A stretch of DNA of 64,000 bases, from the NCBI GenBank assembly GCA_017621655.1, contig JAGASS010000033.1, positions 1 through 64,000 of the forward strand. Direction: 5' to 3'. This DNA is from Clostridia bacterium (GTDB lineage: Bacteria > Bacillota > Clostridia > Oscillospirales > CAG-272). Below the pieces are notes generated by a model. That model ran no database searches. It saw nothing but the letters and a program-made list of their open reading frames with translations, and was not told the DNA's origin. Positions 32,148 to 36,956 of the stretch are shown here, piece after piece. The translations under genes were made by a program, and so were the position numbers. Each line of letters starts with the position of its first letter. The first letter of the stretch is position 1.

Positions 32148-32176
32148 TTGACATTTTGTACAAAATATGCGATAAT
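32148..32176 (+). promoter_or_regulatory. Promoter of the giant secreted protein
   Basis: TTGACA at 32148-32153, a 17-base spacer and GATAAT at 32171-32176. A second TTGACA begins six bases later, so a tandem promoter is possible. Confidence 0.65.
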
Positions 32177-32182
32177 ATCGTT

Positions 32183-32349
32183 GACATTTGATCAATTTCT
32201 TAAAATAGACGGGCAAAACCCGTCTTGTCGTGTTTGCTATAATCTTCCGAGCGCGAAAAAAGGGATTGGGGACCCCGATTTTCGGGCGAGGATGAATATA
32301 GAATTTTTCATGAAAAATTAAAAAATATTTGAAAGGAGAAAAAATTTTT
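32183..32349 (+). promoter_or_regulatory. Structured 5' leader of the secreted protein gene
   Basis: The leader of about 165 bases holds a GACGGG/CCCGTC hairpin near 32207-32224, then a G-rich segment with CCCGA/TCGGG around three T near 32275-32287. An AT-rich stretch and the ribosome-binding site GAAAGGAG follow. I considered a cyclic-di-GMP riboswitch because of a GGGCAAAACCC element, but the rest does not fit. Function is unknown. Confidence 0.4.
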
Positions 32350-35300
32350 ATGAAAAAACGCGCATTATCTCTTCTCTTAGCGTGTTTCATGGTAGTGTCC
32401 ACCTTCATAATCTCTCGTCCCGTTGTAGACGTACACGCGGTTGAGTACTATGAAGACGTTAACCAGTGGACGCTTCCTATGGACTGGTCTACGGGACTTA
32501 AGAGCCAGAATCCCAGCGCAGATCTTTACACCCACGATATGGGATTCAACTATGCAGAGATGGCAGATAAACCCTGGAAGTTTGCCTTCTACACTGACGT
32601 AGATGCAGGCACGGCTTACGTTGCTGAATCCACCGTTGCTGCAGATACGATTACAACCAACCCGGCTGTAAGCGGAAAAGGAAAGGGTCCGGCACCGTTC
32701 ATCGAAACCTTAAACAACAGATGGATATTTGTTGGAACAACGAATTACACAAACTGGTACGTATGTTCTACGGGACGTTGGCAGGATCCTTCTATTGCAA
32801 AGGGTGATAACTCCACTTACATGAAGTTCACCCACTACAATAAGTCCTATACTCCTGCAGTAGTATTTATCGCTCCTCAGGACGGTACTTATTCCTTCAG
32901 CGAGCTTGTTACCGGAGTAACCTTTACCGGTACAAACGGCGATGCTGCAACCCTGACTGCAACAGTTAGAAAGAACGGCGAGGTCATCGCTACCTTCTCC
33001 CCCACCTCCGATAACGCGTCTAAGACACTTACCGGAACGGTTGAACTCAAGAAGAACGAAGAGCTTGCCTTCGTATTCTCTCAGGACGTAAATAACTTTG
33101 TTGCATACGGTGCAGCAGATAAGACGCCCGTTCAGTTTAACCTTGGTACGACCGTCGTAAAGAGAATCGGCGATCTTACCACTTACCCCACTTATGAACT
33201 CCCCATGAACTGGCTTAACAGTACCGATACCGATGCTAACGGCTGGTCTACTACCAGACAGGGCGAATGGTTCCTTACTCATTCGAACAACCTTGACGGT
33301 ACTCCTTCTACGAGTCTTCGCTCTGATTGGACTACCGGAAGTGCACCCACCACTGTTCCGAGACCTTGGTTCGAAGGCGGCAAAAACGTTACAAGAACAA
33401 GCTGGTACATCAACCCTGAAAACCGTTGGGGTGGAACGACGATCTTTAATTCCGGCGTAGAAGGCGAGTATTTCCTTGTTATTCCTTCTGCGTCCTACAA
33501 TCCTTCGATCGTATTTACAGCTCCGTCAAACGGTGAGTATGAATTCAGCGCACTGTTTAACGGCGTAGAAGGCAAAATGGTAGACGCTAACAGCGTTGCT
33601 ATTGAGGTTCTTGCTACCGCTACCGTGCTTGACAATCAGCTCGATTCCTGCACAGTTAAAGAGGGCAGTCTCAACGGTTCGCTTGAAGGCACTGTTGTGC
33701 TCAAAGCAGGTCAGAAGCTTGTATTCACCTTCGATCTGACTACTTCTGCTGCTGTAGTGAATCACCAGGACTTCCTGCATATGACGGGTGCAACGGTAGA
33801 GAAGATCGGTGGTATTCCGGAAGATTACGCAACTGACGTAGAGCTTCCCATCATCTTCGATAAGAACGTTGCTTACACTCATACCGATAAGTTCGGTATG
33901 CTCGAGCTTCACGGATACAGAACCGGCGTTGGTATCTATGACGATACTATTAAGTTCGAGGTTCTTGATGACGGAAGATTTGTCGCTTGGGATACCGATA
34001 TCCGTCGTCCTGCATCCGGCGACTGGACAGCAGTATGGACCGGTACCGTAGACGGTAATCTGACCGGAATAGGCGGTCATTACAACAACTCTACGGTTCA
34101 GAGAATTGAAGGTTCCGCTTTCGAGTTTACTGCTCCGTACACCGGTGAGTTTAAGATCTCCGTAGGTTGTACTGCCGGCTGGTTCACCTCTCGCTTGAGC
34201 TACGCTAAGTATATGCTCAAGGATGCAGAAGGCAACATTCTCGATGAGGTAACGAACGAGGATGCTACCAGTTCTGACAGACTTGTCCCCAGAGTTGTTG
34301 AGGCAACTGTTGAACTCACAAAGGGAGAAAAAATTTACTTCATCCGTGAGACTATAGACAACCCCGACAATGCTAACATTAACCTTTCCTGCGAGGGTAG
34401 CATTACCCTTTCGATCATCGCTCTTGACCACAACTGTTCGGCTGATACCGTCACCTACCATCCTGCTGCTTCTGCAAGCTGTGCTGACGGTAACATCGAA
34501 TACTGGGCATGTCCTTGCGGCATCAACTACGCTGATGCTAACGCTACTACCGAGCTTCTCGGTGCTACCGTAATTCCCGGTACCGGTCACATCGCTTCCG
34601 ATAAGTACGAGAACGATGCTACCCATCACTGGAATCTCTGCGCAGGAGGATGCGGTCTTGTCATGGACAAGGAAGCACACAGCTTCGGCTACGACGGCAA
34701 GTGTACCGATTGCGGTTACGCTTGTAAGCACGAGGAAGACGGCGGCGTGATCAGCACTCCTAACTGTATATTCCCCGGTGTCTGCTCTATATGTAATTCC
34801 GCAGTTAAGCCCACCGACTCGAATAACCACGTTCTTGGCGATTCGGAAGTCGCTTACTACTCAAACGGCAACGGTACTCATAAGAAGGTTACCGTATGCT
34901 GTAAGGCAGAGCTTGCTGTAGATGAGAAGTGTGTATTCGGCGCTGACAACGTATGTGACAAGTGCGGATACGAAAGCGCAGTTCACAGCGACGTTGAAGA
35001 CGCATTTGATAACGCATTTAACGGCGGAAACAACGACGTTAACGTTACCGGTCCGAACGATTCTCTCCTCGACTACGTAACTAAGGTTACGGGAACCGAC
35101 GTTGAGGGCGTTCAGTACGCACACTTCAACATTCATCACGTTGACGGCAAGGTAACTCTCCGTCACCACTTCATCATCACTGCTGACAGCTATGCTATCA
35201 CCCTTAACGGTAAGGCAGTAACTCTTACTAACGTTGAAGGCACCAATATCTGGTACTTCGATACTACTCCCGTAGTTGGCAAGTACGACGTTGCTGATAA

Positions 35301-36306
35301 GATCTCTGTAAACGGTACCGTTACTTACGAAGTATCGCTTTACACCTACATCAGAAAGGCACTTGCTTCTGACGAGCTTAATGCTAACCAGAAGAACTAC
35401 CTCAAGGCACTCTACGATGCTAACGAGGATGCTAAGAAGACTCCGGCGACCACTCCCGTTTACGTTGCTCTGGCTAACCAGAGAGGCGATATGGGAACTC
35501 CCGCTAGACCTTCCAAAAACTGGATCGACATTTACGATATCACCGCGGGCAACATGAACACTCCGTATAAGAGCTACAGTGTTACCGCAGGTGCGATCTC
35601 CGGCTTCAAGTTCCGTAACTCCGCTACGTTCGGTGAGGTTCTCCTTATCGCGGGCGCTTACGACGGCGAGATCATTTCTATGGAGACCGGCGAGACCCTT
35701 TGGATAACTCACAAGGCAGCTCAGAACGCTCACTCTATCGAGCTTCTTCCTAACGGCGTGCTTGCAACTGCATCCTCCGCAGGAAACGCAGTTCATCTCT
35801 TCAACACTGCTCTTAGTGAAGATCAGGAGCCCACGATCTTCGCTCTTACCGATGCTCACGGCGTTCTTTGGGATCCCGAGTACAACGTGCTTTGGGCACT
35901 CGGTCGTACCCACCTCTGGGCACTCGATGTAACTATTAACGAAGACGGCACTGTCGCGGTTGTTAAGAACGAGACACTCAGCTATGAGATGGATATGGAC
36001 CACGGTCACGACCTCCAGCCCTTCTACGGAAATAAGGATTACCTCCTTGTTACCGGTTCGACTGTTATGCTCTACAATAAGAAGACAAAGACTCTCACTG
36101 AGCTCTACTACGAGGGACACAGTGTTAAGGGTATCGGCGTTCTTCCGGACGGCGACATCGTTTACATCTATCCCGATGATCTCTATGAGACTTGGAACTC
36201 CACTTGGATCAACCGCATTGATCGCGCTACCGGCGAGATCACTCAGATCCACTCCAACCAGGGACGTTTCTACAAGCTCCGCGTATTCAACTACGACTAT
36301 CAGTAA
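32350..36306 (+). CDS. Giant secreted multidomain protein with cysteine-rich repeats and a C-terminal propeller
   Basis: The start at 32350 follows GAAAGGAG and gives 1318 residues. A signal peptide (MKKRALSLLLACFMVVSTFI, cut near VHA) is followed by three related beta-rich modules (about 40-250, 255-475 and 480-685) that repeat a LPMNW or LPIIF opening, a V(V/I)FTAPSNGEYEFS-like strand and an aromatic closing strand. Next is a cysteine-rich region of about 190 residues with CPCG, CAGGCG, CTDCGYAC, CSIC and CDKCG. A linker and a WD/NHL-like propeller region end the protein (LLIAGAYDGEIISMETGETL, VLWDPEYNVLWALGR). The propeller recalls DUF6528. No LPXTG, S-layer or dockerin sequence is seen, so release or non-covalent attachment is likely. 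The function is unknown. Confidence 0.85.
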   Translation: MKKRALSLLLACFMVVSTFIISRPVVDVHAVEYYEDVNQWTLPMDWSTGLKSQNPSADLYTHDMGFNYAEMADKPWKFAFYTDVDAGTAYVAESTVAADTITTNPAVSGKGKGPAPFIETLNNRWIFVGTTNYTNWYVCSTGRWQDPSIAKGDNSTYMKFTHYNKSYTPAVVFIAPQDGTYSFSELVTGVTFTGTNGDAATLTATVRKNGEVIATFSPTSDNASKTLTGTVELKKNEELAFVFSQDVNNFVAYGAADKTPVQFNLGTTVVKRIGDLTTYPTYELPMNWLNSTDTDANGWSTTRQGEWFLTHSNNLDGTPSTSLRSDWTTGSAPTTVPRPWFEGGKNVTRTSWYINPENRWGGTTIFNSGVEGEYFLVIPSASYNPSIVFTAPSNGEYEFSALFNGVEGKMVDANSVAIEVLATATVLDNQLDSCTVKEGSLNGSLEGTVVLKAGQKLVFTFDLTTSAAVVNHQDFLHMTGATVEKIGGIPEDYATDVELPIIFDKNVAYTHTDKFGMLELHGYRTGVGIYDDTIKFEVLDDGRFVAWDTDIRRPASGDWTAVWTGTVDGNLTGIGGHYNNSTVQRIEGSAFEFTAPYTGEFKISVGCTAGWFTSRLSYAKYMLKDAEGNILDEVTNEDATSSDRLVPRVVEATVELTKGEKIYFIRETIDNPDNANINLSCEGSITLSIIALDHNCSADTVTYHPAASASCADGNIEYWACPCGINYADANATTELLGATVIPGTGHIASDKYENDATHHWNLCAGGCGLVMDKEAHSFGYDGKCTDCGYACKHEEDGGVISTPNCIFPGVCSICNSAVKPTDSNNHVLGDSEVAYYSNGNGTHKKVTVCCKAELAVDEKCVFGADNVCDKCGYESAVHSDVEDAFDNAFNGGNNDVNVTGPNDSLLDYVTKVTGTDVEGVQYAHFNIHHVDGKVTLRHHFIITADSYAITLNGKAVTLTNVEGTNIWYFDTTPVVGKYDVADKISVNGTVTYEVSLYTYIRKALASDELNANQKNYLKALYDANEDAKKTPATTPVYVALANQRGDMGTPARPSKNWIDIYDITAGNMNTPYKSYSVTAGAISGFKFRNSATFGEVLLIAGAYDGEIISMETGETLWITHKAAQNAHSIELLPNGVLATASSAGNAVHLFNTALSEDQEPTIFALTDAHGVLWDPEYNVLWALGRTHLWALDVTINEDGTVAVVKNETLSYEMDMDHGHDLQPFYGNKDYLLVTGSTVMLYNKKTKTLTELYYEGHSVKGIGVLPDGDIVYIYPDDLYETWNSTWINRIDRATGEITQIHSNQGRFYKLRVFNYDYQ

Positions 36307-36323
36307 GAAAGGAGTAAATAATA

Positions 36324-36455
36324 ATGGAAAAGAAATTTGAAATGCCTACTATCAACGTAGTAGTTTTTGAGAATGAAGACGTTATTACTACCTCCGGTCT
36401 TGACTTTGCTCTTGGTTCGTTTGCGTTCCCGGGCTTCAACCCCTTCGGCGAGTAA
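36324..36455 (+). CDS. 43-residue peptide with DVITTSG motif
   Basis: This small gene starts at ATG 36324 with AAAGGAG ten bases before it, 17 bases after the stop of the giant secreted protein. The peptide begins MEKKFEMPTINVVVFENED, has the core DVITTSG and ends in a Gly/Phe/Pro-rich tail (LGSFAFPGFNPFGE). I recall many short Clostridia ORFs with a charged start, a VVxFExxDVITTSG core and a variable hydrophobic tail, often next to large secreted proteins. Their role is unproven. The leader-plus-tail layout resembles a modified-peptide precursor, but no modification enzyme is seen here. It ends at a strong terminator, so it belongs to the secreted protein's transcript. Confidence 0.7.
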   Translation: MEKKFEMPTINVVVFENEDVITTSGLDFALGSFAFPGFNPFGE

Positions 36456-36468
36456 TAACAAAATGGAA

Positions 36469-36496
36469 AACCACCTGCTTCGGCAGGTGGTTTTTT
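36469..36496 (+). terminator. Terminator of the secreted protein operon
   Basis: AACCACCTGC, loop TTCG, GCAGGTGGTT followed by a T run. Confidence 0.9.
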
Positions 36497-36606
36497 AATG
36501 AATAGTGAATGATGAATGATGAATAATTTTCGGGCTGTCGTGGGCGCCAGCCCCTACCGCGAAAGCATCAAACGCTTCCGTAGGAGCTAATGGCACTATT
36601 TTCCCC
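36497..36606. repeat. MITE-like repeat remnant at the sigG break
   Basis: The segment opens with tandem TGAATGA-type units (36498-36527), then GGGCTG/CAGCCC as a hairpin (36532-36553) with the flank CCCTACCG. Such TGAAT-rich ends with a GC-rich hairpin are frequent dispersed repeats in Clostridia genomes (remembered resemblance). It directly abuts the point where the sigma-G similarity stops. Confidence 0.45.
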
Positions 36607-36907
36607 TCGGTACATTCATCGGCACGGCGTAGGTGGAAAATTTGACGTCGAGATCGGTATTAAAATTGTCGACCGCTTTGATCAGTCCGACGCATCCGAC
36701 CTGAAAGAGATCGTCTACGTTTTCTTTTCTGTTTGTGAAGCGTTGGACTATGCTGAGGACAAGGCGCAGATTTCCGTCGATAAGCTGTCGGCGCGCGTCA
36801 GTGTCTCCCGCCTTAGTTTTTAAGAGCAGTTCCCTTTTCTCTTCGTCGTTAAGTGTCGGCAGCTTTGCCGTATTCACTCCGCAAATTTCAACCTTACTGT
36901 AATACAT
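36596..36907 (-). pseudogene. sigG: Truncated sigma-G (RNA polymerase sporulation sigma factor) gene
   Basis: The ATG at 36907 (MYYSKVEICGVNTAKLPTL) follows GGAGGGG. The first 95 or so residues match SigG almost motif for motif: SKVEICGVNT, NGNLRLV in region 2.1, DDLFQVGCVGLIKAVDNF in region 2.2-2.3 and VKFSTYAVPM. After AVPM the normal continuation (IIGEIRRYLRD) is replaced by NVPRGK and a stop. Regions 2.4, 3 and 4 (about 160 residues) are missing. The break coincides with a repeat-like sequence. A functional sigma factor cannot be made from this copy alone. Another intact copy could exist elsewhere. The gene lies behind a terminator hairpin that overlaps its ribosome-binding site. Confidence 0.8.
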
Positions 36908-36956
36908 AAAACCCCTCCGCAAAATACTGTTTTAAGTATTGACGCGGAGGAGTTTT
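36908..36956 (-). terminator. Terminator of the UPF0210 operon, overlapping the sigG ribosome-binding site
   Basis: On the leftward strand AAAACTCCTCCGC pairs with GCGGAGGGGTTTT over 13 bp with one G-U pair, and AATACT/AGTATT forms an inner stem. The 3' arm contains the GGAGGGG that should serve the sigG start, and the T run ends at the ATG. Confidence 0.75.

Follow-up and report, generated by a model that had tools for sequence, protein, structure and literature searches.

A very short open reading frame behind the gene of a giant secreted protein raises two questions: whether it is a gene at all, and what a 43-residue product might do, either with its large neighbour or apart from it. The frame lies at 36324-36455 of the window, i.e., the whole stretch of 64,000 nucleotides analysed here, from a Clostridia bacterium of the order Oscillospirales. 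An initial annotation, made from the letters of the sequence, had described a tiny gene with a good ribosome-binding site, 17 bases after the large frame (which stops at 36306) and before a shared terminator, and each of these elements is indeed present. The transcription unit consists of the following parts:

32148..32176, + strand: sigma-A-like promoter TTGACA-17-GATAAT of the secreted protein-peptide unit (consensus scan, 11/12; a consensus match only)
32207..32225, + strand: GC-rich hairpin in the 5' leader of the secreted gene, with a T-rich tract behind it (aligned with the upstream region of the secreted gene on contig C42)
32350..36306, + strand: large secreted protein with a signal peptide, a NEAT/Ig-like partner domain and a C-terminal DUF6528 propeller (ORF list; DUF6528 E 6e-10)
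35236..35433, + strand: the partner domain, which the A4 profile finds exactly 8 times in the genome, each time with a peptide gene behind it (profile search, AlphaFold, Foldseek)
36308..36314, + strand: ribosome-binding site of the peptide gene, AAAGGAG (read from the sequence; conserved in other copies)
36324..36455, + strand: 43-aa LPP-like precursor peptide MEKKFEMPTINVVVFENEDVITTSGLDFALGSFAFPGFNPFGE (9 genome copies, pN/pS 0.24, family profile)
36336..36347, + strand: FxxP element at residues 5-8, where the leader is predicted to bind the RRE (covariation with the residue of the genome's RRE that corresponds to Asp70)
36393..36395, + strand: codon for the predicted phospho-acceptor Ser24, nearly invariant within DVITTSG (conservation; analogy with LppA core Ser3)
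36467..36494, + strand: shared intrinsic terminator with a 12-bp stem (listed on the minus strand by the scan; palindromic, with the T-tract on the + strand)

The large protein likely starts at ATG 32350 and not at TTG 32329, because the Shine-Dalgarno sequence and the MKKR signal common to the paralogues favor the former. The hairpin AGACGGGC..CCCGTCT recurs in the 5' leaders of two secreted genes, at 32207-32225 of the window and in locus L107 (3298-3679, minus strand), and is possibly a shared attenuator; the 5' leader has no match in Rfam. Beside the terminator of the peptide gene, a 108-aa ORF (36596-36922, minus strand) resembles the N-terminal part of a SigG/SigF-type sporulation sigma factor with an early stop and may, as judged by eye, be a truncated sigma-factor remnant. 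A short dispersed repeat of the GAATGATGAATGATGAATAAT type is located 3' of several peptide terminators, at 36500-36530 and in the flanks of the copies on contigs C20 and C42.

The frame at 36324-36455 is a real coding gene. Eight near-identical peptide copies (88-100%), one of them cut by a contig end, are present in the genome of the window, together with one further, diverged copy, MDEKFTSPECETIIFDNEDVITVSLGGDDVNLPEFGE. The copies of the window and of contig C20 encode an identical peptide and differ by 7 synonymous and 0 nonsynonymous changes. Pooled over nine copies and two species, pN/pS is 0.24, and the peptide genes are under purifying selection. Homologues, which the initial annotation had proposed to look for, thus exist and are selected as proteins, and the frame is more than a chance ORF because of its copies, this selection and its recurrence in other genomes. 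Profile searches of Pfam and NCBIfam match the peptide to no family, and a literature search with the motif strings returned nothing relevant.

With an improved profile, the family is found in 77 of 396 sampled genomes of the order, at one to eight per genome, and in only 4 of 398 genomes sampled across the phylum. Ruminococcus flavefaciens (L196) is a carrier that has been cultured. Its consensus is [YF]xxPxxE[VI][IV]xF[ED]xxD[VI]ITxSG, followed by a variable tail that is mostly acidic and Gly/Pro-rich and differs widely between species. Of 49 members, at least 90% have Ser24 of DVITTSG. The part that had been called a charged leader is more exactly a leader of the RRE type (FxxP/YxxP), and the site that is likely modified falls within DVITTSG. 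One input row of the A2 profile (MNKKFISPECDV...) is off by one residue relative to its locus, and in the A5 profile one row (MKKIYEQPELEV...) derives from an alignment that had been trimmed through an insertion; neither profile is materially changed. Cys-containing tails (GGCLTWSNQNGVACHYGLT) occur in the precursors L112 (G278), L111 (G276), and L122 (G320), and a radical SAM gene adjoins the Cys-tailed precursors in G278 and G276, suggesting different chemistry behind the same leader.

Every copy in the window's genome that is not at a contig edge sits behind a large secreted protein; at the diverged copy, a small lipoprotein intervenes between the two. Across the order, a secreted protein defined by a strict rule (same strand, <150 bases away, at least 250 aa, hydrophobic N-terminus) stands upstream of 31/56 peptide loci as compared to 66/758 control genes (OR 13, p 1e-16), and many of the exceptions are, by inspection, contig edges or start-call artefacts. 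The gap between the secreted gene and the peptide gene has a median near 20 bases, with several overlapping stops and starts. The statement of the initial annotation that similar peptides lie beside secreted proteins in other Clostridia is borne out by these counts. The partners are not always propellers, as had been considered, since the proteins encoded upstream are diverse: in the own genome they include the DUF6528 propeller protein of the window, a GH2/CBM35 protein of 2203 aa and a metallophosphatase, and elsewhere SLH proteins. At L288 2-1009 (contig C23 of G170), a 335-aa SLH-domain secreted protein reads in frame into a family peptide at its C-terminus, an additional hint that peptide and secreted protein belong together, though a ribosome-binding site is present before the internal ATG. 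The lipoprotein preceding the diverged copy (L017 7049-9497, minus strand) ends in VNLPGITF and the peptide itself in VNLPEFGE; a small lipoprotein likewise precedes the peptide of L109, and L160 has a lipoprotein behind the peptide.

The upstream proteins share a 68-residue beta-plus-helix segment near their C-termini. In the own genome, the profile of this segment (A4) has exactly eight matches, namely the eight genes with a peptide gene behind them (8/8), and the ninth peptide is at a contig end; the rows of the profile come mostly from this genome, so that the test concerns extra matches, of which none was found. The pairing of domain and peptide holds in G006 (4/4) and G007 (8/8), counting contigs that allow judgement. 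The sister species G004 and G005 have no such domain and no full-length peptide, with at most one partial peptide match, and outside the genus the pairing is partial or looser (G170, G373). The AlphaFold model of the domain (pLDDT 84) is a beta-sandwich, and its Foldseek similarity to NEAT domains is weak (best E 0.0055, TM about 0.4), the NEAT label being a description only.

Processing enzymes, the other kind of neighbor that the initial annotation had suggested looking for, adjoin the peptide in relatives. In the own genome there is one cassette, on contig C42, away from the peptide of the window, with four genes:

C42:3680-4849: NTP_transf_5 protein (PF14907 E 1e-35)
C42:4819-5283: Sec11/SipW-like (archaeal-type signal-peptidase-like) peptidase (profile weakly matches SEC11A, TIGR02228)
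C42:5280-5546: PqqD-type discrete RRE (PF05402 E 9e-16; related to lasso_PqqD models)
C42:5548-6252: HprK-like kinase (A3 profile; AlphaFold pLDDT 92.6; HprK and PEPCK among the top Foldseek matches)

The kinase profile has no match among PDB sequences, and a fold search was used instead. In A6 the Ser, His, and Asp of the peptidase never vary, and the own sequence has all three; an S24-like assignment of this small enzyme was dropped, as it is closer to Sec11 and the archaeal signal peptidase. The cassette is followed on C42 by a terminator and a promoter, and then by a secreted protein-peptide pair. In several relatives, the peptide adjoins the HprK-like kinase, the PqqD protein, the small peptidase, an ABC transporter and the NTP_transf_5 protein. 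An MsbA-like transporter belongs to the cassettes of G370, G043, G173, and G309, and no MsbA-like exporter lies within the C42 cassette. Two loci from another family of the phylum, outside the window's order (L177 of G772 and L178 of G805), have the gene order large protein-peptide-kinase-peptidase. The kinase is found in 67/77 genomes with the peptide and in 57/319 others (OR 31, p 2e-30, uncorrected for shared ancestry); the 10 peptide-positive genomes without a kinase match and the 57 kinase-positive genomes without a peptide match may reflect detection limits or real absence.

This set of enzymes is that of the LPPs (linear polyphosphorylated peptides), encoded by lppAKBSDN of Paenibacillus alginolyticus (Popov et al., 2026; PMC13381572). 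According to that paper, a single core Ser receives several phosphates from the LPP kinase, the peptidase depends on the RRE, and the final product and its role are unknown, no native product having been identified; secreted proteins and the order considered here are not mentioned in the main text. As described there, the LPP system shares with the present one the HprK-like kinase, the discrete RRE, the Sec11/SipW-like Ser-His-Asp peptidase and the NTP transferase, and an ABC exporter is found in the LPP cluster and, here, in relatives. Short precursors, a conserved leader of YxxP type, a variable tail and a conserved Ser at a similar downstream distance are also common to both. In contrast, of the published leader consensus YxxPxVLxHQxIxFETxxS only the aromatic-xxP, the F[ED] and a downstream Ser recur here: the HQ is missing, the P-to-F spacing is shorter, FET-x-x-S is not at the same place, and the own genome has Phe where the LPP leader has Tyr. 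Unlike those of the LPP system as described, the precursors here lie scattered, with as many as nine to one cassette, and are linked to secreted proteins; the hosts are an order of gut Clostridia and not Bacilli. The present system is LPP-like, yet it is not filed as an LPP member because its leader consensus differs.

Prochlorosin-type RiPP systems use one maturation set for many dispersed precursors. Their chemistry is different, and the coupling of every precursor to a secreted protein sets the present system apart. Two other precursor types were considered and rejected: the hydrophobic spacing before SG does not fit a double-glycine (C39) leader, and an AgrD- or subtilosin-like peptide does not agree with the lack of Cys. 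As far as the literature consulted shows, the many dispersed precursors and their coupling to secreted proteins are new.

Leader recognition gives a link between the peptides and the cassette. In the LPP crystal structure, the leader Tyr is hydrogen-bonded by Asp70 of the RRE (PMC13381572). The RREs of 44 genomes were aligned, the leader aromatic was read for those with a peptide sequence, and the Asp70 column was set by its spacing to the following aromatic (Phe74), not by alignment with LppB. A Tyr leader goes with Asp in 30/32 genomes and a Phe leader with a non-Asp residue in 5/7 (G000, G034, G056, G148, G372; Fisher p 0.0007, uncorrected for shared ancestry). The exceptions are G246 and G329 with Phe leaders and G348 and G158 with Tyr leaders; G140 has Ile in the leader and Thr in the RRE, and G291, with mixed Tyr and Trp leaders, was excluded. 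In the own genome (G000), all leaders have Phe and the RRE has Ala. This covariation is evidence that the RREs read these peptides, in the own genome as well.

The 43-aa ORF is quite probably the precursor of an LPP-like (linear, kinase-modified) RiPP system that is served by the C42 cassette and whose product would work with the secreted protein. The initial idea of a precursor of some exported or modified product gains support from both the secreted-protein association and the cassette. With the LPP work as a model for what each enzyme does, including phosphorylation and removal of the leader, the C42 cassette would run the cytosolic steps in trans: its RRE would bind the FxxP leader, the HprK-like kinase would phosphorylate Ser24 of DVITTSG, which is by analogy the likely phospho-acceptor, the Sec11/SipW-like peptidase would cleave off the leader, and the phosphate may receive a group from the NTP_transf_5 protein. 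Nine scattered precursors, each co-translated behind a secreted protein with the NEAT/Ig-like domain, would feed this one cassette, and the mature peptide would work with its secreted protein, most likely as a bound or attached surface partner. Taken alone, the joint action of the product and the co-translated protein is something we infer with about even confidence. That the kinase-modified, RRE-dependent peptide would be a dedicated surface partner or attachment group for a whole class of secreted proteins, made via one cassette and bound or joined by the NEAT/Ig-like domain, is a more tentative proposal, somewhat below even chances.

The modified peptide might instead act alone as a signal or inhibitor, the secreted protein being merely co-regulated. 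The products of LPP and lasso pathways are small, free peptides, the tails vary widely between species, and the clusters of G276 and G278 (with the radical SAM gene) have no visible secreted partner. This reading is nevertheless rather unlikely, as nine copies, eight of them with nearly the same tail, stand behind different secreted proteins that share one domain 1:1, and a free signal needs no nine dispersed copies coupled to stop codons. The strict gene order, the short or negative spacing and the shared domain, as well as the G170 SLH protein that continues in frame into the peptide, would also suit a secretion or anchoring accessory, such as a chaperone or a sorting adaptor, which the cassette only marks and from which no natural product is made. 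We give this possibility a similarly low weight: leader, RRE, and peptidase follow a processing logic that releases a core, and the peptides of the radical SAM clusters have Cys-containing cores.

A lasso peptide precursor is very improbable. Paeninodin-type clusters do combine a YxxP-type leader with PqqD, an HprK-like kinase and an NTP transferase, and the lasso peptides of the phosphorylated paeninodin type and the glycosylated pseudomycoidin type (PMC8498205) have a PqqD-type RRE, an HprK-like kinase, a nucleotidyltransferase and an aromatic-xxP leader in common with the present system. However, the B2 leader peptidase (PF13471, Transglut_core3) of those systems has no match in G000 and is absent in most carriers (two matches above cut-off among 25 genomes), no cyclase gene was seen in the cassettes inspected, the precursors are dispersed, and core positions 7-9 (GLDFALGSFAFPGFNPFGE) contain no Asp/Glu for a ring, assuming that the core starts at Gly25. 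The least probable reading, a chance ORF or a leader-type regulatory peptide (attenuator) without protein function, would agree with a frame that is short, unannotated and unmatched in Pfam and NCBIfam, but is ruled out by selection and conservation: the protein-level conservation, the low pN/pS, the spread among genomes of the order and the RRE covariation all contradict chance, and the frame follows the structural gene instead of preceding it.

The preferred reading, that of an LPP-like precursor working with its secreted protein, gives a peptide family first described in 2026 a link to the cell surface that can be tested. The position of the genes, the short distance between their reading frames and a domain common to the secreted proteins tie each precursor here to a particular secreted protein, which makes the role of the peptide testable, i.e., whether it travels with, binds or anchors that protein. 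The system, which is common in an order of gut Clostridia, also adds many unannotated precursors, and the Tyr/Asp versus Phe/non-Asp pairs offer a natural test of RRE-leader specificity. If the peptides are surface partners, RiPP chemistry would be used for cell-surface architecture, not for antibiosis, and one cytosolic cassette would make phospho(glyco)peptides from many precursors, each delivered with the protein encoded upstream of it.
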